From Phycisphaerales bacterium (lineage in GTDB: Bacteria > Planctomycetota > Phycisphaerae > Phycisphaerales > UBA1924), in the NCBI GenBank assembly GCA_007693785.1, contig RECY01000030.1, positions 16,300-80,299 of the forward strand: a DNA stretch of 64,000 bases, written 5' to 3'. Position numbers and translations under genes: made by a program. How positions within the stretch are numbered: the first letter of the stretch is position 1; the number at the start of each line of letters is the position of its first letter. The notes below the pieces were generated by a model, which worked only from the letters and a program-made list of their open reading frames with translations, did not search any database and had not been told where the DNA came from. Shown here in pieces: positions 9,594 to 49,701 of the stretch.

Positions 9594-11756
9594 CTACTTG
9601 CGGACGAGTTGGCGCAGCTCCGGCTGGCGGAAGGCGGCCGAGGCGAGGGCGTAGGTCATCAGCCCAACGACCACGCCGCCCGTCAGGCGCAGCGCCCACG
9701 TCGCCCACGTGTCCTCGCCCCATGGCACCAGACGCTGCACGCCCAGCACCGCGACCGCGAGCAGCGCGCTGCACGCGAGCGTGCGCGCGCCGGAAGCGAA
9801 GACGCCGCCGGACCACGGGCTCCACCCGGCTTTGCGCTGCAGGAGGACGCTGAGCGCCACCGTCTGCCCCATCGCGACGAGGGCCGTCGCGAGCGCGAGC
9901 CCGGCCTCGGCGAGCGGCCAGATCAGGATCAGGTTCAGCAGGAGGTTCGCGACCAGCGTCCAGAGCGCCACACGCAGCGGCGTCCGCGTATCGCCCTGCG
10001 CGTAGAAGGCGCGGGTCCAGAGCTGGTTCAGGCTGTAGACCCAGACCGCCAGCCCGTAGCAGACGAGCACGAGCGTCGCGCGACGCGCGCCCGCGGCGCT
10101 GAAGCCTAGGTCTGAGCCCTCGGGCGCGCGGAAGAGGACGCGGACGAGGTCCGGCGCGACGAGCAGGAGACCGACGGTCGCGGGGACGCCGATGAAGAGG
10201 CTAAGGCGGACGCCGCGTCGGAGTGTGTCGGCGAACGCGCCCGTGCCCGTGCGCACGTCGGCGGCGCTGCGCGCGAGCATGGGGAAGACGACGGTCGCGA
10301 CGGCGATGCCGAAGACGCCGAGCGGGAACTGGTAGAGGCGTTGCGCGTAGAAGAGGATCGCGTTGCTCTCCGGGTCGAGCGGGTAGTCGGTGCCGAAGAC
10401 GGTCGGCCCGACCCAGACGGGGTACATCGCGACGAGGGTGTCGAGCAGGGCGGAGAGCTGGACGGTGCCCATGCCGAGGACGACGGGGCCGAAGCGTCGG
10501 AGCGTGCGCCGGACGGGGTCGCGCAGCTCGGCGAGCGCGGGCGCGTCGGGGCGCTGCCAGCGGACGTGGCGACGGAGGGCGAGCAGCGCGAGGGCGATCT
10601 GGAGGAGCCCGGAGACGAGGGCCGCGATCCCGATCGCGTAGGCGGCGGTGACGGGCGCGGGGTCTGTGCGCACGAGGAAGGGGATAGCTGCGGCGATGAT
10701 GCAGAGGTTGAGCAGCACGGGCATCGCGGCTGAGGGCGCGAAGCGGTGGTGCGTCTGGAGGATCCCGCCGAGCAGCGCCGCGACGCAGACCATCGGCATA
10801 AACGGGATGAGGAGCATGATGAGGCGCAGGCTGAGCGCACGATCCGGGTCGTCGCCAGCGATGAGGAGAACGGCGAGCAAGGCGAGCTCGATGACCACCG
10901 TGAGCGCGCCGGTGAAGAGGGCGAGGGCGGCGACGGTGAGGCTGGCGAAGGCCTGGGCGCGTCTCGGGTCGTTCTTGTCGAGGGCGGCGTACTCGGGGAT
11001 GAAGGCGGCGGCGAGTGCGCCCTCGCCGAAGAGGCGTCGGAAGAGGTTGGGGATCGCGAACGCCGCGGCGAACGCGGAGCCGACGGCGGTGTCGCCGAAG
11101 ATGCGCACGGTGACCAGGTCGCGTGCGAGCCCGAGGACGCGGCTGACGAGGGTGATGAGGCCGAACGTGCGCACGCTGGCGGCGAGGGAGGGGGTGGGCG
11201 TTGTGGCTGGATCGAGGAGAGCCCCCTCCGCCCGCTGCGCGGGCACCTCCCCCGCCGGGGCGGGGGAGGGCGGAGGCGTGGCGCTCGCGGGCTCGGGGGA
11301 GAGGGCGGCGGTGAGTTGTTTGCCGAAGGGGATGGTGATCGCGAGGACGGCGGCTGTGGCGAGGGCGATGCCGAGGAGGTTGGCGAGGTAGTCGTCGAGC
11401 GCGACGGTGCGCCCGAGGGCGGGGATGCCCTGCGTGCTCTCGTTGATCGCGGCGAAGACGGCGGCGACAAAGAACGCGCGGACGACCGTCCTCGGTCGCA
11501 GCCAGTCGCCGAGCAGGTTGCTCGCGATGAGCAGGATGGTGAACCCGCCGAAGGCGGTGAGGTGGAGCGCGAGGTCGGGGCGGTGGAAGTCGCCGATGTC
11601 GATGGTCAGGCGGGGCCAGTGCGTGCCGAGGCAGAGGGCGACGGTGTAGAGGATGAAGGCCGCGAGGCGGAGCTTGGGCGCGGTCAGCGTGCGCGCGATG
11701 CGGGTGATGCGCGACACACGGGTCGTGCGCGAGCTCGGCCCGGGCTCTGGGCTCAC
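9594..11756 (-). CDS. murJ: VanZ-like domain fused to MurJ lipid II flippase
   Basis: This 720-residue integral membrane protein has a C-terminal part (about 193-720) that is MurJ/MviN, the MOP-superfamily flippase for lipid-linked peptidoglycan precursors. It shows LVSRVLGLARDLVTVRIFG, then NLFRRLFGEGALAAAFIPEY and many TM segments. The N-terminal part (about 30-142) looks like a VanZ domain: FHRPDLALHLTAFGGFTILL, INESTQGIPALGRTVALDD and LANLLGIALA reproduce the H, E-x-x-Q, P-x-x-x-R, D and N-x-x-G pattern. A Pro/Ala-rich linker (143-192) joins them and is partly encoded by a type F repeat. The GTG start at 11756 overlaps the parA stop (GTGA), so translation is coupled. MurJ alone is usually about 520 residues. 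Confidence 0.85.
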   Translation of the reverse strand: MSPEPGPSSRTTRVSRITRIARTLTAPKLRLAAFILYTVALCLGTHWPRLTIDIGDFHRPDLALHLTAFGGFTILLIASNLLGDWLRPRTVVRAFFVAAVFAAINESTQGIPALGRTVALDDYLANLLGIALATAAVLAITIPFGKQLTAALSPEPASATPPPSPAPAGEVPAQRAEGALLDPATTPTPSLAASVRTFGLITLVSRVLGLARDLVTVRIFGDTAVGSAFAAAFAIPNLFRRLFGEGALAAAFIPEYAALDKNDPRRAQAFASLTVAALALFTGALTVVIELALLAVLLIAGDDPDRALSLRLIMLLIPFMPMVCVAALLGGILQTHHRFAPSAAMPVLLNLCIIAAAIPFLVRTDPAPVTAAYAIGIAALVSGLLQIALALLALRRHVRWQRPDAPALAELRDPVRRTLRRFGPVVLGMGTVQLSALLDTLVAMYPVWVGPTVFGTDYPLDPESNAILFYAQRLYQFPLGVFGIAVATVVFPMLARSAADVRTGTGAFADTLRRGVRLSLFIGVPATVGLLLVAPDLVRVLFRAPEGSDLGFSAAGARRATLVLVCYGLAVWVYSLNQLWTRAFYAQGDTRTPLRVALWTLVANLLLNLILIWPLAEAGLALATALVAMGQTVALSVLLQRKAGWSPWSGGVFASGARTLACSALLAVAVLGVQRLVPWGEDTWATWALRLTGGVVVGLMTYALASAAFRQPELRQLVRK
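11219..11271 (-). repeat. Type F hairpin repeat, copy 2, inside a coding sequence
   Basis: On the minus strand this stretch matches copy 1 at 5234-5288, including the CCTCCCCCGCC / GGCGGGGGAGG arms and the GTGCC-CGCGCAGCGGGCGG tail. It is translated as PPPSPAPAGEVPAQRAEGAL within the linker of the VanZ-MurJ fusion, about residues 161-180. Reading stays open through it and both domains are intact, so this is an in-frame repeat insertion tolerated as a linker. Confidence 0.82.
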
Positions 11757-12685
11757 GCCGAAGGCTCGTCCTGGGGCGTGCGTGAAGTCGCGACGACGTG
11801 GACCGTCGGCGGCTCGGGGGCGTTGTCGGTCGCGTTGTCGGCGTCGAGTGCGGCGAAGGACTCGGCGAGCTTGCGGTAGTCGTTCGCGCCCGGGGCCCAC
11901 GGGGCGTACTGGAAGATCGTCTGCCCGAAGCTCGGGCACTCGGCGAGCTTGACGTTGCGCCGGATGTGCGGGTCGAGCACGCGGGCGTCGGCCCAGGGGG
12001 CGTCGGAGCCGCGTTGGGATTCGAGGAACTCGGTCAGGTCGGCGAGGACTTCCTGGGCGTGGGTCGCCTGCGTGTCGTGGGCGCAGAGGACGACGCCGGC
12101 GACGGTGAGGCGCGGGTTCAGGTTTGTGCGCACGAGCTGGACGGTCTCGAGCAGCTTGCCGACGCCCTGGAGCGCGAGGAAGTGGCTCTGCATCGGGATC
12201 AGCACGCGGTCGGCGGCGGCGAGTGCGTTCAGCGTGAGCAGGCCGAGCGATGGGGGGCAGTCGAAGAAGACGTGGTCGAACCAGCCGTCGATCTTGTTGA
12301 GGGCGGTTCGGAGGCGCTGGTTGCGGTCGGGCTGCCCGGCGAGGTCGCTCTCGGCGGCGGCGAGGTCGGTCTCGGCGGGGAGCAGGCCGAGGTGCTCGTG
12401 GATGCGCACGATCGCGTCCGGCGTGGCGGCGGGGTCTTCGAAGCAGTCGTAGACGGAGGCGTCGAGGGACGAGGGGTCGACGCCGAGGTGGAGCGTGGCG
12501 TGGGCCTGCGGGTCGAGGTCGACGACGAGGACGCTGTGCCCGGCCTCGGCGAGGGCGGCGGCGAGGTTGACGGTGGTGGTGGTCTTGCCGACGCCGCCTT
12601 TTTGGTTCATCAGGGCGGTGGCGCGGGTCCGGCGCGGGGGCTGGGGGGGATGGACGGGTTTGGCGTTCGATCCTTCTAAGGCCAT
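11753..12685 (-). CDS. ParA family ATPase
   Basis: This 310-residue protein is a Walker-type ATPase of the ParA/Soj family, which positions chromosomes or other cargo by ATP-dependent DNA binding. The deviant Walker A is NQKGGVGKTTTTVNLAAALA (about 27-46). Walker A' appears in VVDLDPQAHAT and Walker B in VFFDCPPSLGLLTLNALAAA. The start ATG 12685 (MALEGSNAK) avoids a longer frame that would translate the type C repeat upstream. No parB is nearby. Instead the gene overlaps the VanZ-MurJ gene by four bases, which suggests a link to cell-envelope growth or division rather than a classical parAB locus. That role is inference. Confidence 0.9.
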   Translation of the reverse strand: MALEGSNAKPVHPPQPPRRTRATALMNQKGGVGKTTTTVNLAAALAEAGHSVLVVDLDPQAHATLHLGVDPSSLDASVYDCFEDPAATPDAIVRIHEHLGLLPAETDLAAAESDLAGQPDRNQRLRTALNKIDGWFDHVFFDCPPSLGLLTLNALAAADRVLIPMQSHFLALQGVGKLLETVQLVRTNLNPRLTVAGVVLCAHDTQATHAQEVLADLTEFLESQRGSDAPWADARVLDPHIRRNVKLAECPSFGQTIFQYAPWAPGANDYRKLAESFAALDADNATDNAPEPPTVHVVATSRTPQDEPSA

Positions 12686-12709
12686 GGGCGGAGTATACGA
12701 GGTGGCATG

Positions 12710-12797
12710 GTGGCACAGGTCTCTGAGGTGGCATAGGTCCCCGACCTGTGTCTCTGAAGGCCTGAAGGGGAGGACACAGGTCGGAGACCTGTGCCAC
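12710..12797. repeat. Type C repeat with 14-bp perfect inverted ends
   Basis: The 88-bp element starts GTGGCACAGGTCTC and ends with its exact reverse complement, GAGACCTGTGCCAC. Inside is a second partial unit, GGTGGCATAGGTCCCCGACC. Another truncated start, GGTGGCATG, lies just outside at 12701. The GTGGCAC end is shared with type A. It lies directly upstream of parA and downstream of the terminator of the giant gene. Confidence 0.85.
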
Positions 12798-12813
12798 CAG
12801 GTGGCGGAGGTCA

Positions 12814-12848
12814 ACGAAAAACGGGCGTCCCCGGCTGGGGACGCCCGT
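12814..12848 (-). terminator. Rho-independent terminator of the giant secreted-protein gene
   Basis: A perfect 12-bp stem (ACGGGCGTCCCC / GGGGACGCCCGT) with a 4-base loop is followed, on the minus strand, by TTTTTCGTT. It starts 24 bp beyond the stop of the 2054-codon gene and is the clearest terminator of its type in the first third of the window. Confidence 0.85.
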
Positions 12849-41518: not shown

Positions 41519-42633
41519 GCGAGGCGTGGTCGACCAACGTGAGCATCGCCGAGATCGGCGACTGGCTTCGGGGCAAGCCCCGCGTCGCGGTCCTGACCCA
41601 CGGCAAGCCCGACGGGGACGCGATCGGCTCGACCGCTGCCGTCGTGCGCGCGATCAACCACGCGAGCCACGCCCCCGGGCACGCGGCCCGCGCGTGGTAC
41701 GTCGGCCCGGTACCCGGGTGGGTGAAATCCATTGCCAACGGGACGGCGTACCGCGTGGTCGAGGACAACGGGCTCCCGCAGAAGCACGAGGCCGAGGCGG
41801 TGCTGATCTGCGACACCGGCAGCCGCGCGCAGCTCGAGGGCTACGCGGATCTCCTGAAAACCGAAGGCTTCGCGCAGCGCGCCGCGATCGTGGACCACCA
41901 CCTGCAGGGCGACGCGGAACTGGCCGAGCGTCGGCACGTGGACAGCTCCGCAGCGGCCGCGTGCGAGCCGGTCGCCGAGCTGTGCGCGCACATCATGGGC
42001 CTTGCCGGCGTGCGCGAGCTGCCGAAGGACGTCGCGACGCCGCTCTACCTCGGGCTCGCGACGGACACCGGCTGGTTCAAGCACTCGAACGTGCGCCCGC
42101 GGACGCTGCGCCTCGCGGCGGACCTGCTTGAGGCCGGGGCCGACCACGCGTGGCTGTATCGCGTCGTGGAGCAGCGGGACCGCGTGAGCCGCCTGCGCCT
42201 GCTGGGGCGTGCGTTCGAGAAGATGACGCTGCACTGCGACGGGCGTGTCGCGGTGCTCCCCCTGAGCATCGCGGATTACCACGCCGCCAGGGCGGGCCCG
42301 GGCGAGACGGGCGGCTTCGCGGACCAGGTGCTCAACGTCGCGGGCGTGCTCGTCGCGGTCGTGCTGACCGAGGTCGAGGCGAAGGGCGACCCGGCGCAGG
42401 GCGGCGAGCCGGCGCGCGTCAAGCTCAGCTTCCGCAGCAAGAGCGGGCGACCAGCGGTTGACGTGAACGCGGTCGCCCAGACCTTCGGCGGCGGCGGGCA
42501 CGCGCAGGCCGCCGGAGCGCGGCTCGAAGGCGCGATGGACGAGGTGATCGCTCGCGTGGTCGCGGCGCTGACGCCGGCCGTGGAAGAGGCCGGCGCTGGC
42601 GAAGACCTGAACGAAAACGGGGTCGAGTCGTGA
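41515..42633 (+). CDS. DHH/DHHA1 family phosphoesterase (NrnA-like)
   Basis: This 372-residue protein has the DHH domain motifs VLTHGKPDGDAIGSTAAVVR, VLICDTGSRAQLEG and AAIVDHHLQGDAELA (the DHH signature), then LYLGLATDTGWFKHSN. The C-terminal DHHA1 part ends in AQTFGGGGHAQAAGARLEG. This layout fits NrnA-type enzymes, which degrade oligoribonucleotides or dephosphorylate pAp, or the c-di-AMP/pApA phosphodiesterases. It overlaps ribF and the methyltransferase gene (ATGA, then GTGA). nrnA-ribF neighbourhoods are common in bacteria, often with rbfA and truB. Confidence 0.88.
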   Translation: MSEAWSTNVSIAEIGDWLRGKPRVAVLTHGKPDGDAIGSTAAVVRAINHASHAPGHAARAWYVGPVPGWVKSIANGTAYRVVEDNGLPQKHEAEAVLICDTGSRAQLEGYADLLKTEGFAQRAAIVDHHLQGDAELAERRHVDSSAAAACEPVAELCAHIMGLAGVRELPKDVATPLYLGLATDTGWFKHSNVRPRTLRLAADLLEAGADHAWLYRVVEQRDRVSRLRLLGRAFEKMTLHCDGRVAVLPLSIADYHAARAGPGETGGFADQVLNVAGVLVAVVLTEVEAKGDPAQGGEPARVKLSFRSKSGRPAVDVNAVAQTFGGGGHAQAAGARLEGAMDEVIARVVAALTPAVEEAGAGEDLNENGVES

Positions 42634-43490
42634 GCAAAGAAGACGCCGGCTCGGCGGGCGGCGGGCGATCGCCGCACGGGCCCAAGTTCGTCCCGCGAGC
42701 CAAGCAGGACCGCATGGCCGCCGGCGCGCAGCGGGCCCGCACCTCCAAACCCCCGCTCCGTCTCCAGACCACCACGCTCTGGGAATATCCGAGCCAGCAC
42801 TACGCCCCGGGCGCGAGCGGCGGCACGCTCGACAAAGCCACCCAGGGCGACGCGGGGTACACCGGCGCGACGCCGAGCTGGGTCATCTGGCAGTTGCTCA
42901 CCCGCTACACGCGCGAGCGGGACCTGGTCGTCGACCCGATGGTCGGGAGTGGCACCACGCTCGACGTGGCGCGCGACATCGGTCGGCGCGGGCTCGGCTA
43001 CGACCTCAACCCGACGCGCGACGACGTCCTCCGCGCGGACGCGCGCAAGCTGCCGCTTGAGAACGGCAAGGCTGACTTTGTGTTCGTCGATCCGCCCTAC
43101 TCCACGCACGTGGACTATTCCGACGACCCGCGGTGCATCGGCAAGCTGGACGCCGCGGGCGAGGACGGCGGGGCAGCCTACTACAACGCGATGGCGGGCG
43201 TGCTCGACGAGATCCACCGCGTGCTCAAGGACCGACGCTACATGGCGCTCTACGTCAGCGACTCGTGGAAGAAGCACAAGGGCAGGAGCGAAGCCGCGAC
43301 GCCGGGCGTGTTCATGCCGATCGGCTTCGAGCTGTTCGGGATGCTGCGCGAGCGGTTCGTGCCGGTGGACATCATCACGGTGGTGCGCCACAACAAGAAG
43401 CTCGCCCGCGGCAACTGGCACAAGGCGGCCGAGGAAGGGAACTTTTTCTTGCGCGGGTTCAATTACCTGTTCATCATGAAAAAGGCGTAG
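42630..43490 (+). CDS. DPPY-motif DNA or RNA methyltransferase
   Basis: This 286-residue SAM-dependent methylase has motif I VDPMVGSGTTLDVARDIGRR (about 101-120) and a catalytic motif VFVDPPYSTHVDYSD (DPPY at 154-157). This indicates transfer to an exocyclic amino group (adenine N6 or cytosine N4) or a Trm11/Trm-G10-like RNA target. Motif I precedes DPPY, unlike the usual order in beta-class DNA methylases. GTG 42630 overlaps the upstream stop (GTGA). No restriction endonuclease or specificity subunit is near, so it is an orphan enzyme in a housekeeping operon. Its stop TAG is the start of a type D repeat. Confidence 0.75.
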   Translation: MSKEDAGSAGGGRSPHGPKFVPRAKQDRMAAGAQRARTSKPPLRLQTTTLWEYPSQHYAPGASGGTLDKATQGDAGYTGATPSWVIWQLLTRYTRERDLVVDPMVGSGTTLDVARDIGRRGLGYDLNPTRDDVLRADARKLPLENGKADFVFVDPPYSTHVDYSDDPRCIGKLDAAGEDGGAAYYNAMAGVLDEIHRVLKDRRYMALYVSDSWKKHKGRSEAATPGVFMPIGFELFGMLRERFVPVDIITVVRHNKKLARGNWHKAAEEGNFFLRGFNYLFIMKKA

Positions 43491-44870: not shown

Positions 44871-46484
44871 TCAGTTGAGCGAGCGGCAGACCCAGACGCG
44901 CCGGGACGACTCGCCTTCAACGGCGACTTCGACCGCGAGATGGACGCGGATCGGCGAATCCAGCAGCCCGCGGACGCGCTTGGGCTCGTCGGTCAGCAGG
45001 TGCATGGTCGGCTGCGACGCGTCGACCTGGGCGGCGGCTCGGAGCAGGGCGGCGTTGGTCCGGGCCCAGGCCTCGGCCGCCGCCAGGTGCTGGGCCGCCG
45101 TTCCGCGATCGACCCCGGGCACCGACGACGAGGCCTCAGGCGATGTGTCGGCGTCGCCGGCGCGTTCGATCGCGATCAGGTGGAGCGAGCCGCGGGCGTC
45201 CCCCGCGAGATGCACGCCCGGCGCGACGGGGCAGGCGAGCTCCAGCAGGCGCAGGCCCGCGACCGCCGGGCCCGCGCTCGCCCGAGGCGTCGCGTTGACG
45301 CCGAGGTCGGGCGAGGCTTCGGGGCGGCCCGCGCGTGCGGCGGTCGCCTCGGGTCGCAGGGTGTCCGGGCTCTCAGGGCTCGCCTCGCGCGATCCGGGCG
45401 TGCGGCGGTCCTCGTTCGGGTCGATCGCCTGCGCGGTGAAAGCGGCGTCGATCGGTTCGGCGAGGCTCTCGTCCGCCTCGGCGCGCGTCGCCCGGGCGTC
45501 GTCGGTCGCGAGGCGGAGCCTCGGGCCCGGCGTCGGCGTCGGGGCGCCTGCGACGCCCGCTGCGACGGGCGCACGCGTCGGCTCGGCGTGGCGGAGCCAG
45601 CGGAGCAACTCGGCAGGGTCCAGCGGCGTCGATGAGCCGGCCTCGTCCTGCGTTTGGCTTGCGAGGTGGGCGAGTTCGGTGACGCGAGGGCCGCCGATGC
45701 GGCTCGCGCACGCCTCGGCCTCGATCGGGCCTCCGAGAAACGAGGCCGACGCCTTCATCAGTTTGTCCGCAGCCGCCTGAGCGCGGGCGGGGTCGGCCCC
45801 GAAGACCGCGGCCCGGATCGTCGGCGTGTGCAGCACGTCCCCGCCCCTCGCCTCGCGACGCGCCTCGATCGACTCGCCGAGACGCTTGGCGGCCCGGTAC
45901 GCCGCGACCGCCGCCGCGTCGTCCGCACCGCTCAGCACGGTGACCGCATCCAGCAGGCGGGCGCCGGAGAGCGCCAGATCGATCAGCCCGGGCTCGTCGA
46001 GCTCGCCGACCTCGAGGATCGCGGCCGCCGCTCGCGAGGCCACCGCGTAGACCGCGCGACGGGCGTTCTGCGTCTCCAGCGCGCCGCGGTCCTCGTGCGC
46101 GTCGTGTTCGGCGCGGTCGCCGACGATCGAGACGGTGAGCGCGCCCTCGCGGAGGCGGAGCACGGCGACGGGCCCGCCGAGGCGTGCCGCGAGCTGGCGC
46201 GCGTACTGGTTCACCCACAGCCCGGCACGGACGGGCAGGTGCCCGAGCAGCACGCCCTCGACGTGCAGGCGCGGGTGTGCCGAGGCGCGCACCGTGCGCC
46301 GGGGCTTGGGTTCGGCGCTCAGCGGGGGGGCGACGATCACCGCGTCGGGCTCGGCGAGGCCCAGGGGGCTCTCGTCGCCGAGGAAAAGCTCGGCGAGCGC
46401 GTCGAACTCGTGCTCGTGCGGGGGCTCGTTGAGCCCCGGGAAGGCGTGCGCGGGCGGGGTCTGTCCGTTGGTGCGACCGGTCAT
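44871..46484 (-). CDS. MinD/FlhG-like protein lacking a P-loop
   Basis: This 537-residue protein is not obviously a known family. Residues about 80-260 follow the MinD/FlhG layout without the ATP-binding loop. Where a KGGVGKT would be, it reads LLGHLPVRAGLWVNQYARQL. ILEVGELDEPGLIDLALSGA and VTVLSGADDAAAVAAYRAAK correspond to the Walker B and AY-x-x-x-K regions. IRAAVFGADPARAQAAADKL then ASASFLGGPIE matches the FlhG stretch before the final ATPase helix. A long low-complexity Ala/Pro/Asp region follows, then a C-terminal globular part (HLLTDEPKRVRGLLDSPIRV). GGAG lies 10 bases before ATG 46484. It directly follows the ParA-CBM48 gene. The call is inference from pattern. Confidence 0.55.
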   Translation of the reverse strand: MTGRTNGQTPPAHAFPGLNEPPHEHEFDALAELFLGDESPLGLAEPDAVIVAPPLSAEPKPRRTVRASAHPRLHVEGVLLGHLPVRAGLWVNQYARQLAARLGGPVAVLRLREGALTVSIVGDRAEHDAHEDRGALETQNARRAVYAVASRAAAAILEVGELDEPGLIDLALSGARLLDAVTVLSGADDAAAVAAYRAAKRLGESIEARREARGGDVLHTPTIRAAVFGADPARAQAAADKLMKASASFLGGPIEAEACASRIGGPRVTELAHLASQTQDEAGSSTPLDPAELLRWLRHAEPTRAPVAAGVAGAPTPTPGPRLRLATDDARATRAEADESLAEPIDAAFTAQAIDPNEDRRTPGSREASPESPDTLRPEATAARAGRPEASPDLGVNATPRASAGPAVAGLRLLELACPVAPGVHLAGDARGSLHLIAIERAGDADTSPEASSSVPGVDRGTAAQHLAAAEAWARTNAALLRAAAQVDASQPTMHLLTDEPKRVRGLLDSPIRVHLAVEVAVEGESSRRVWVCRSLN

Positions 46485-46595: not shown

Positions 46596-48200
46596 TCAGG
46601 CGCTCGCGGCTTGCGCGCCGCGCGGGGCGAGCGTCAGCAGGCTGTCCCGCTCGCCGAAGGGGTTGCTGACGGTGGTCGGGTTGTACGGGTCGGCGATCCA
46701 GCGCCCGTCGACGACGAGGCGGTATCGGTACCGCCCCGGCTCCAGGTCGATCGCCAGCTCGTGCACGCCGAGCTCGTCGTTGCGGGTCAGCGTGTGCGTC
46801 TGGGCGTCCCAGCCGTTGAAATCGCCGGCGATCGAGACGACCGCGCCGAGCCCGAGGGGCTGGATAAAGACGACGCCGCGGCTGGTCGCCCGCGCGCCGA
46901 ACAGCCGCGCGACCGCCGACGCCCGGTGCACGCCCTCAGGGCGGAGCAGGGAGGCCATCCCGCGCGGGCCCGCCTTGGGCTCGACACCCGGCGCGTGGGC
47001 GTGGGCCGCGGTCCGTTCGCCGAGGCTCTGGAGCCGATCGGCGAGCGTCGCGGCACGAGCCGCCAGCTCCTCAGCCCGCGAGCGTGAGGGGGATTCGGGG
47101 TCCGCCGGGCCGGTCTCCCCACCGTCGGCGTCGGGCTCGCGGGCTTGGGGTGGCTCGCCGGTCGCCCGGGCCTGGGCGGCTTCGATGACCCCGGCCGCGG
47201 GGTGCTGGCGCATCCGGGCCGCGAGCAATGCTCGCACGCCTTGAGCCGCCGCTTCGCCCGATTCGCCCGCGTCCTTTGGCTCGCTGGTCTGCTCGGCGCC
47301 GGGCGAAGCCGACGCGGTCGATGCGCTGGCGCTGATCGCGGGCGTGGATCGGCGGGCCGCTTCGCCCGGGTCGTACGCATCAAGGGCGGCCTGCCAGCCC
47401 TCGTCCCCGCTCCCGGCGATGTTCAGCCCGCTCTCCAGCACCAGCCAAGCCGCCAACGCCAGATAGTCCCGAGCGCCCACCGCCTCGGGCGCGTACTCGA
47501 TTACGGGTTGCCCGAAGCTCGCCGCCTCGCGCAGGCGGTCGTCCTGGCGCACCACGATCGGCACCACGCGGTGCTCGTGACGACGTCGCAGTTCCTCCAG
47601 CAGGTCGCGGGCGAGCGGGGCTGTCGGATCGTGGATCGTCCCGACCAGCCACGCCCCGGGCGTCACGCCCAGACGCTTGCCCAGGCTCCGGACCGTCTGC
47701 ATCTGGCGCTCGGCGCCCTGCAGGCTGAAAAACGAGGTTTCAACCGGCACGAGCACCGCGTCGGCCGCCGCGATCGCGTTGTAGGTCAACAGCCCGATCG
47801 AGGGGGAGCAGTCGATCAGGCAGACGTCGTACCGGTCCTTGAACTGCGCCAGCACGCCCTTGAGGCGACGGTCGCGGTCGGCACGCTCGGCGATGCCGGA
47901 ACGGGCGGCCTCGATCCCCGCCACCTTCATCCGGCTCGGCGCGAGGTCCAGATTCCGACGCACCCGCCAGAGCAGTCGCTCCGGATCGAGCGCCCCCGGA
48001 TCGGGGGCGAGCATCGCGTCGGCGATGTCCAGGTCGATCCGGTTCTCCGGGATCGCCAACCCTGCGCAGCAGTGCGCCTGCGGGTCGGTATCGACCAGGA
48101 GCGTGCGGAGGCCGCGGGCGGCGAACGTCCCGGCGAGATTGATCGCCGAGGTGGTCTTCCCGCATCCGCCCTTTTGATTGACTATCGCGATCGTGCGCAC
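46596..48200 (-). CDS. ParA family ATPase fused to a CBM48/AMPK-type glycogen-binding domain
   Basis: This 534-residue protein starts at GTG 48200. Residues 1-265 are a ParA/Soj ATPase: AIVNQKGGCGKTTSAINLAG, TLLVDTDPQAHCCAGLA and VCLIDCSPSIGLLTYNAIAA, then VETSFFSLQGAERQMQTVRS. A long Ala/Glu-rich, probably disordered linker (266-430) follows. Residues about 441-525 form an E-set/CBM48-like domain: AVVSIAGDFNGWDAQTHTLT, GRYRYRLVVDGRWIADPYNP and TTVSNPFGERDSLLTL. These match the GDFNGW and RYRYR-x-VDG-x-W signature of AMPK-beta and isoamylase N-terminal modules. This pairing is unusual. No parB is near. It is part of the rsfS-aroB-parA-mnmA run. Confidence 0.88.
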   Translation of the reverse strand: MRTIAIVNQKGGCGKTTSAINLAGTFAARGLRTLLVDTDPQAHCCAGLAIPENRIDLDIADAMLAPDPGALDPERLLWRVRRNLDLAPSRMKVAGIEAARSGIAERADRDRRLKGVLAQFKDRYDVCLIDCSPSIGLLTYNAIAAADAVLVPVETSFFSLQGAERQMQTVRSLGKRLGVTPGAWLVGTIHDPTAPLARDLLEELRRRHEHRVVPIVVRQDDRLREAASFGQPVIEYAPEAVGARDYLALAAWLVLESGLNIAGSGDEGWQAALDAYDPGEAARRSTPAISASASTASASPGAEQTSEPKDAGESGEAAAQGVRALLAARMRQHPAAGVIEAAQARATGEPPQAREPDADGGETGPADPESPSRSRAEELAARAATLADRLQSLGERTAAHAHAPGVEPKAGPRGMASLLRPEGVHRASAVARLFGARATSRGVVFIQPLGLGAVVSIAGDFNGWDAQTHTLTRNDELGVHELAIDLEPGRYRYRLVVDGRWIADPYNPTTVSNPFGERDSLLTLAPRGAQAASA

Positions 48201-48405: not shown

Positions 48406-49701
48406 TCAGCCCAGGCGCACGGCCGACCAGCCCGCGTCGATCGCCTCGCTCGGCGGCGCTTCCACCACGCGCGCCTGCGCCCCGGGCTCGGGCAACACCA
48501 GGCGCAAGCGACCGCCCGACACCTTCTTATCGTGCCCCATCGCGCGGATCAGGACCTCGTTCGACGGCAATCCCCCGATCCGGGTTGCCAGCCCCGCGGT
48601 CTCGAACAGCTCGCGGACACGCTCAACGAACCCGGCGTCGGCGAAGCCCATCGCGGCGCTGGTCGCCGCGGCCGCCACGCACCCGATCGCGACCGCCTCC
48701 CCGTGACGCAGGGGCGCGTCGGCGGGGTTGTCGGTCGGGCTGAGCGCGGACCGGGGCTCGATCGCGTGGGCGAAGGTGTGCCCGAGGTTCAGCAGCGCGC
48801 GCCCGCCGGCGGCGCTCGAAGCCAGCTCCCGCTCGTCGCCCGCCACGACCCGGGCCTTCAGACGGACGTTGTCCGCGACCATCGACGCGCACGCCGAGGG
48901 GTCGCGGGCCAGCACGCCCGCCAGGCCGCGCTCGATCCGGGCTGCGAGCGCTTCGGGCGGATCGCCGGAGTCGTGCTCAGGGGGGGCGGCCGAGGCGGCG
49001 ATCAGGGTGTGCTTGACGCACTCGGCGAGCCCGGCGCGGAGGTCGCGCTCCGGGAGCGAGGCGAGCACGCCAACGTCCGCGAGCACCAGGCTCGGCTGGT
49101 GGAAGACGCCGATAAAGTTCTTGAGCAGCCCCAGCGTGTCCGCCTCGTGCGCCGGGTCGTGCTCGTATCGTCGGGTGTGTCGGTGATGGTGCTCGTGCTC
49201 CTGCCCGGGGAGGGCGGCCGCGGCGAGGTTGACCCCGGTCTTGCCGCCCACGCTCGCGTCCACCATCGAGAGCAGCGTCGTCGGGCACTGGATGACCGGG
49301 CACCCGCGCCGATAGACGCCCGCGGCAAACCCGGCAAGATCGCCCACCACGCCCCCGCCGAGCGCGATGACCGGGTCCGTGCGCTCGTGACGGCTGTGCG
49401 CCAGCTCGCGGAGCAGGTGCTCCAGCGTCGCGAGGTTCTTCACGCGCTCGCTCGGTTCAAGACGGAAGACCGTCACCCCAGCGCCGGAGCCGTGGAGCGA
49501 GGCGGTGGCGCGAATCACCGTCGCTTCCGGGACGCCCAGGTCCGCGACGACGCACGCCCTTGCGGGGGCGTGCCCGAGCGACGAGGCGGTCAGCTCGCCC
49601 AGGCGGTCCAGCAGCCCGTCGCCCACGAGCACGTCGTACGCCCGATCGCCGAGAGGGACGCGGACGCGGTGATCGCCGCTCCCGCTGGTGGTGCTGGTCA
49701 T
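48406..49701 (-). CDS. aroB: 3-dehydroquinate synthase with His-rich insertion
   Basis: AroB forms 3-dehydroquinate from DAHP in the shikimate pathway, using NAD and a divalent metal. The 431-residue protein has VIALGGGVVGDLAGFAAGVY, CPTTLLSMVDASVGGKTGVN and LPERDLRAGLAECVKHTLI, plus the metal ligands in LLNLGHTFAHAIE and LRHGEAVAIG. A non-family segment (about 160-191) includes PGQEHEHHHRHTRRYEHDPA and sits just before KNFIGVFHQP. Its ATG overlaps the rsfS stop (ATGA). A 205-bp gap separates it from the ParA-CBM48 gene. Confidence 0.94.
   Translation of the reverse strand: MTSTTSGSGDHRVRVPLGDRAYDVLVGDGLLDRLGELTASSLGHAPARACVVADLGVPEATVIRATASLHGSGAGVTVFRLEPSERVKNLATLEHLLRELAHSRHERTDPVIALGGGVVGDLAGFAAGVYRRGCPVIQCPTTLLSMVDASVGGKTGVNLAAAALPGQEHEHHHRHTRRYEHDPAHEADTLGLLKNFIGVFHQPSLVLADVGVLASLPERDLRAGLAECVKHTLIAASAAPPEHDSGDPPEALAARIERGLAGVLARDPSACASMVADNVRLKARVVAGDERELASSAAGGRALLNLGHTFAHAIEPRSALSPTDNPADAPLRHGEAVAIGCVAAAATSAAMGFADAGFVERVRELFETAGLATRIGGLPSNEVLIRAMGHDKKVSGGRLRLVLPEPGAQARVVEAPPSEAIDAGWSAVRLG

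Follow-up and report, generated by a model that had tools for sequence, protein, structure and literature searches.

The locus described here raises the question of why a ParA ATPase should end in a carbohydrate-binding module (CBM), and of what such a protein might position in the cell. It lies in a stretch of 64,000 nucleotides (the window) from Phycisphaerales bacterium (GenBank assembly GCA_007693785.1, contig RECY01000030.1, positions 16,300 to 80,299). A preliminary description of the sequence had proposed that one gene of the window joins a ParA ATPase to a CBM48/AMPK-type module, that it lacks a parB neighbour, and that it is adjacent to a MinD-like protein without a P-loop. All three proposals were borne out. 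The fusion is widespread in the class Phycisphaerae, and it is often followed by a gene for one family of predicted FlhG-like proteins that lack the P-loop; a helix in the linker of the fusion tends to occur together with this partner. The features of the locus, in window coordinates, are the following.

46596..48200, minus strand: ParA-CBM48 fusion gene, 534 amino acids, a single open frame.
47436..48200, minus strand: ParA ATPase domain, residues about 1-255; all of the 102 sequences aligned keep K10, C13 and K15 of KGGCGKT.
47031..47084, minus strand: conserved linker helix, residues 373-390 (RSRAEELAARAATLADRL), putative docking site for the partner.
46620..46883, minus strand: AMPK/CBM48 module spanning residues about 440-527 and including W464, R494 and W501, from a Pfam match and alignment.
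44871..46484, minus strand: partner gene, 537 amino acids, with an acidic N-terminal motif, a predicted P-loop-less FlhG/MinD-like domain (about 70-300), a disordered linker and a C-terminal domain (about 411-537).
46374..46415, minus strand: N-terminal motif of the partner, residues 24-37 (EHEFDALAELFLGD), from motif comparison.

Both ends of the fusion exceeded the curated cut-offs of Pfam within one frame, residues 1-255 as a complete ParA ATPase and the tail as an AMPK/CBM48 module. When the C-terminal region was compared with Pfam, the scores for the CBM48/AMPK1_CBM models were 39.0 bits against a cut-off of 26.8, and 32.1 against 22.4 bits. The closest solved sequences and folds of the front were those of chromosomal ParA/Soj proteins, its predicted model had the ParA fold by the test applied, and the tail was closest in sequence to AMPK beta. 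The linker between the two was modelled mostly with low confidence and contained some helices, the best at about residues 375-401. The Pfam model of BcsQ covered residues 1-252; membership in the BcsQ family was rejected, as the fusion reached only 91.3 of the 157.85 bits of the NCBIfam equivalog cut-off. A role in a known defence system was likewise dismissed, as PADLOC returned nothing convincing, namely one match of the fusion (E value 0.006 over 37 residues) and none of the partner.

The fusion is not an oddity of one assembly. Both AAA_31 and AMPK1_CBM were present in the precomputed Pfam lists of all 119 relatives, which were the best 119 of 2830 protein-search matches. A locus set was built from the best 80 of 506 genome-contig stretches encoding a relative, which together with the window locus gave 81 loci; a planctomycete was named for 74 of the 80 stretches, mostly from Phycisphaerae or Phycisphaerales. 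Records labelled Cyanobacteria and Limnohabitans (L021, L056) nest among the planctomycete rows and are likely mis-binned contigs. Among the matches listed in the survey across the class, at least 94 of 148 near-complete genomes encoded the module in a frame 350 or more residues long. These class tallies rest on 97 module rows and 48 partner rows that were taken over by hand, with weaker, mostly shorter-frame rows excluded, and one genome (G034) was counted on the basis of an unread 719-residue frame. In the fetched genome stretches, from which the genome of the window was excluded, a single frame contained the P-loop of ParA as well as the FNxW of the module in 87 of 93 cases; four stretches gave no ATPase frame (G011, G034, G104 and G135), so that 87 of 89 counted stretches contained FNxW. 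In a sample of 294 genomes of the phylum, matches with an E value of 1e-20 or better were found in 47, and only four of these (G160, G171, G178 and G202) were outside the class. Two of the four were fetched: G171 carries the fusion, and the G202 stretch gave no ATPase frame. The recurrence of the fusion in all listed relatives, and in one frame in nearly all stretches, rules out a frameshift, a chimera or an assembly error, and leaves a practically negligible probability that two genes were joined by such an error or by chance.

The ATPase keeps its catalytic residues. K10, K15 and D39, that is, the deviant Walker A motif KGGxGKT and the catalytic aspartate, were retained in 102 of 102 aligned sequences, and the cysteine of KGGCGKT was equally invariant; one of the 80 loci (L016) has KGGSGKT and stood outside the alignment. 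No parB gene is located at the locus, and the ParB_N matches of the genome are on contigs C13 and C8, not on C12. A canonical, likely chromosomal ParA is encoded elsewhere in the window (11753-12814, minus strand), also without a parB beside it; it and the ParB, on another contig, are separate from the fusion.

The module retains the residues that contact sugar in AMPK. The family module profile, for which 50 of 61 family members were aligned, matched FNgW and YrlVvDGrW to the AMPK motifs FNNW and YKFFVDGQW, and the glycogen contacts W100, K126 and W133 of AMPK corresponded to W464, R494 and W501 of the fusion. These positions were tryptophan in 101 of 102 sequences, arginine in 99 (glutamine in the remaining 3) and tryptophan in 95, respectively, with arginine replacing the lysine of AMPK. 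According to a review, W100G and K126Q abolish glycogen binding by the isolated AMPK beta-1 module and W133L partly disrupts it (PMC6274970), and a second paper describes W100 as critical (PMC8431764). Because the contact residues have been kept, including in genomes without glycogen-gene matches, the module looks as if it has been selected as a sugar binder. Glycogen is a plausible but weakly supported cargo. The only other AMPK1_CBM match of the genome was found on a beta-lactamase-fold serine hydrolase (L002:1480-3036, minus strand, contig C2).

The second component is encoded next to the fusion. In 58 of the 81 loci the fusion is immediately followed downstream by a gene of one family in the same orientation; the median gap was 2.5 bases and the gap was at most 150 in 56 of the 58 cases, and the three largest negative values were attributed to frames extended too far. 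Of the 48 partner matches listed for the class sample, 44 were located no more than 3 kb from the module and in the same orientation, and in the other four (G093, G131, G142 and G147) the same stretch encoded a ParA without the module. The partner of the window had no match in Pfam or NCBIfam. Its predicted model had a pLDDT of 73, and the folded part (70-300) matched FlhG. The family profile also picked up FlhG-like proteins by sequence, with the similarity following the P-loop region. Among these was the FlhG of the same genome (named by eye), which has an intact GKGGVGKT and stands beside an FlhF-like frame; its E value against the partner profile was 1e-7 in a whole-genome search, and it was missed by default hmmsearch owing to the bias filter but scored 29.2 bits with the filters off. 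Neither the window protein nor the consensus of the partner alignment (32 of 58 family members) contained KGGxGKT, and a conserved GHLPV..W occupies this place instead. The partner opens with the motif (F/Y)DALADLFLG (FDALADLFLG in the window), which is acidic and conserved and was more informative than the other nine stretches in a comparison of ten. Its strict form occurred in 32 of 58 members within their first 100 residues, compared with a shuffled rate of 0.00009, and a divergent partner that was missed by clustering (L078) has a similar motif. The C-terminal domain (residues about 411-537, window 44874-45254, minus strand), which was predicted mostly with high confidence, had no relative in Pfam or in whole-protein fold searches.

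The linker helix connects the two proteins by its distribution. Of 37 genomes in which the partner was clear, 31 had the pattern RxxELxxR; the 9 genomes where the partner match was weak and the 43 without a partner all lacked it. The pattern was defined after viewing the data, the counts come from another sampling of the same class, and the genomes sampled are not independent of one another. Among families, it was found in six of seven with a clear partner (not in f8) and in none of the six without any partner match. The nine weak matches fell into eight families, none with the helix pattern. They may be true but divergent partners, and thus the tie of helix and partner is strong within six families but not universal. 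Families with both (f10) and with neither (f19, f22 and f23) appeared in one clade of the tree, with families assigned to rows by eye, and therefore closeness to the window alone is insufficient to explain the tie. By eye, an R(A/M)AxLxxR-like helix was also seen in five of seven loci without the CBM (L033, L036, L039, L049 and L061; it was looser in L068 and absent in L021), and in three genomes without it (G093, G131 and G142). The joint distribution of helix and partner suggests that the helix could be the docking site of the partner. Three families without the partner (f7, f16 and f18; L142, L145, L149, L162, L170, L171 and L176) have a different conserved linker helix of the LAADAERLLATT type, which may dock a second partner.

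A tree of 79 rows contained 51 loci with CBM and partner, 18 with the CBM only, 7 with the partner only, and none with neither among the uncut rows. Two of the 81 loci had been dropped (L072 was short and L024 had no P-loop); of the 79, 69 had the CBM, 7 did not, and 3 were cut by contig ends. An 80th row was an outgroup on a long branch, and in two of the CBM-only loci (L056 and L059) the sequence stops shortly downstream of the gene. Read by eye, the tree suggests that CBM and partner are both old and that each was lost repeatedly.

These features could reflect a positioning system. In the established mechanism of ParA/MinD ATPases (PMC10241942, PMC12462528), ATP-bound dimers bind a matrix, and an interface partner links the cargo and triggers release. 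By analogy, we tentatively propose, at somewhat less than even confidence, that the ParA-CBM48 fusion and its FlhG-like neighbour form a ParA/MinD-type positioning pair, the predicted cargo of which would be an alpha-glucan body, for example, a glycogen granule. In this model, dimers of the ATPase in the ATP state would attach to a matrix, most probably the nucleoid, and the partner would dock on the linker helix and switch or steer the ATPase. The CBM48 module would give the ATPase a direct hold on the glucan, and in this way granules would be distributed within the cell or divided among the daughter cells. The most specific version, a dedicated system for positioning and sharing granules in which ParA grips the glycogen granule by its AMPK-type module under the control of a pseudo-FlhG docked on the linker helix, is on the unlikely side. 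As the motif of the partner is acidic and the cargo hook is apparently located on the ATPase itself, the wiring would probably be unlike that of ParB or McdB.

Several observations weigh against this proposal. Six of the 37 genomes with a clear partner lacked the helix, as did all nine with a weak match, so that 31 of 46 genomes with any partner match had it. ParA and the partner occurred without the CBM in seven loci and four genomes, which makes the module dispensable for the pair, and the CBM occurred without a detected partner in 18 of 79 loci and in several whole families of the class sample. The position matching R238 of Myxococcus xanthus ParA, a DNA-binding residue (PMC12462528), was arginine in only 10 and lysine in 22 of 102 sequences when mapped by hand; at the other positions, R218 was kept in 80 of 102 and K/R224 in 102 of 102. 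Known ParA/MinD partners are described as working via a basic N-terminus (PMC10241942, PMC12204374), but the 20-residue window around the partner motif had a median charge of -3 and was positive in only 4 of 54 cases (two of the 54 windows, L019 and L068, were misplaced), and no McdAB-like basic N-terminus was found. The glycogen genes did not follow the fusion either. Among the matches listed for the 148 genomes, the GT5 synthase family was found in 134 (132 above the family cut-off, with many matches being short pieces) and phosphorylase in 135. GT5 was not tied to the fusion (87 of 94 genomes with it and 47 of 54 without, p 0.38), and phosphorylase was rarer with the fusion (82 of 94 compared with 53 of 54, p 0.03). 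Four genomes carry the fusion without a match to GT5 or phosphorylase; G060, G075 and G082 keep both module tryptophans, and G119 has lost the second. A GH13 match was present in 11 of 12 genomes tested. The exception, G137 (a single contig, 99% complete), has fusion and partner, no match to phosphorylase or GH13, and a partial match to GT5, and it keeps FNGW and DGRW and thus both tryptophans. Overall, the genomes speak slightly against an obligate link to glycogen. The earlier suggestion of a positioning ATPase with a glycan anchor gained support from the conserved sugar contacts and the partner gene; glycogen as the cargo did not.

The same pair might therefore operate with a CBM48 module that binds something other than glycogen, either another glycan or a protein. 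The independence of the fusion from the glycogen genes, and the retention of the module in G137, speak for this alternative; on the other side, the AMPK-equivalent tryptophans and basic residue are kept in 95-101 of 102 sequences, beyond what a mere scaffold would need, and the glucan genes searched for were GT5, phosphorylase and GH13, which do not extend to the GlgE/GlgM and GH57 routes. We consider it rather unlikely. More improbable is a glycan-sensing switch, in which glucan bound to the CBM would control the ATPase and, through it, polysaccharide synthesis or cell division. This idea draws on the analogy with BcsQ, the Pfam model of which matches the front of the fusion, and with AMPK, which has a similar module and responds to glycogen (PMC6274970); an mraZ-like gene nearby (cluster 19, 11 of 81 loci, by eye) would also fit. 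Least probable of these is a regulator without any role in positioning, in which the FlhG-like partner would pair with ParA as a mixed dimer and cap the active site of the ATPase. The predicted P-loop-less FlhG-like fold of the partner and the paired genes would be in accord with such a dimer, but the catalytic residues of ParA are kept throughout the alignment, including loci without the partner (such as L043 and L044), and the linker helix accompanies the partner, which suggests docking on the linker instead.

The closest characterized systems compare as follows. With ParA/Soj (M. xanthus ParA 8RAY, Helicobacter pylori Soj) the fusion shares the ATPase domain, the predicted fold and the catalytic residues, but it has a long linker, the CBM48 tail and the cysteine in KGGCGKT, it has no parB neighbour in this genome, and the DNA-binding arginine tested is mostly not conserved. 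The McdA-McdB system, which positions carboxysomes, likewise consists of an ATPase and an adjacent partner with a short conserved predicted helix in its N-terminal part, whereas here the partner is a folded relative of FlhG, its motif is acidic rather than basic, and the glycan module is on the ATPase. With FlhG/FleN, which are MinD-like, the partner shares the predicted fold of its middle domain and sequence past the P-loop region; it differs in the conserved GHLPV..W in place of the P-loop and in its extra N- and C-terminal parts, and the neighbours tested at the locus are not flagellar. The module and its contact residues are shared with the CBM of AMPK beta, with the plant proteins SEX4 and LSF1 and with the CBM48 of GlgB, but in those proteins they belong to a kinase complex, a phosphatase or a branching enzyme, and here to a ParA ATPase. 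BcsQ is also a ParA-like ATPase linked to a polysaccharide pathway, but the fusion misses its curated cut-off, and BcsQ is not known to carry a CBM.

The wider neighbourhood was lineage-specific and was set aside as a functional clue. The aroB gene was found upstream in 43 of 81 loci, an RsfS cluster in 18 loci, DUF2752 and lipoprotein-like clusters in 17-18 loci, and an MraZ-like cluster in 11 loci; the labels RsfS and DUF2752 are from the Pfam match of one representative, aroB from that of the window, and MraZ and the lipoproteins were named by eye. The aroB of the window has a seeming His/Arg-rich insert (residues about 160-192, 49126-49224, minus strand), and its Pfam match falls into two stretches. 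The window also encodes an N6/N4 DNA methylase (Pfam N6_N4_Mtase; 42630-43490, plus strand).

No description of a ParA-CBM48 fusion was found in the open-access full-text literature, judged by titles and the beginnings of abstracts, and the literature searches did not bring up the use of a ParA/MinD pair for placing sugar stores. ParA/MinD ATPases are described as organizing genetic and protein-based cargos (PMC10241942). If the proposal is true, their cargo range would extend to stored sugar, and within the literature searched there would be no earlier ParA/MinD device with a polysaccharide as cargo. It would also mean that a pseudo-ATPase of the FlhG line serves as a partner and that the helix on which it docks is gained and lost along with it, and the inheritance of storage granules would become testable in bacteria.
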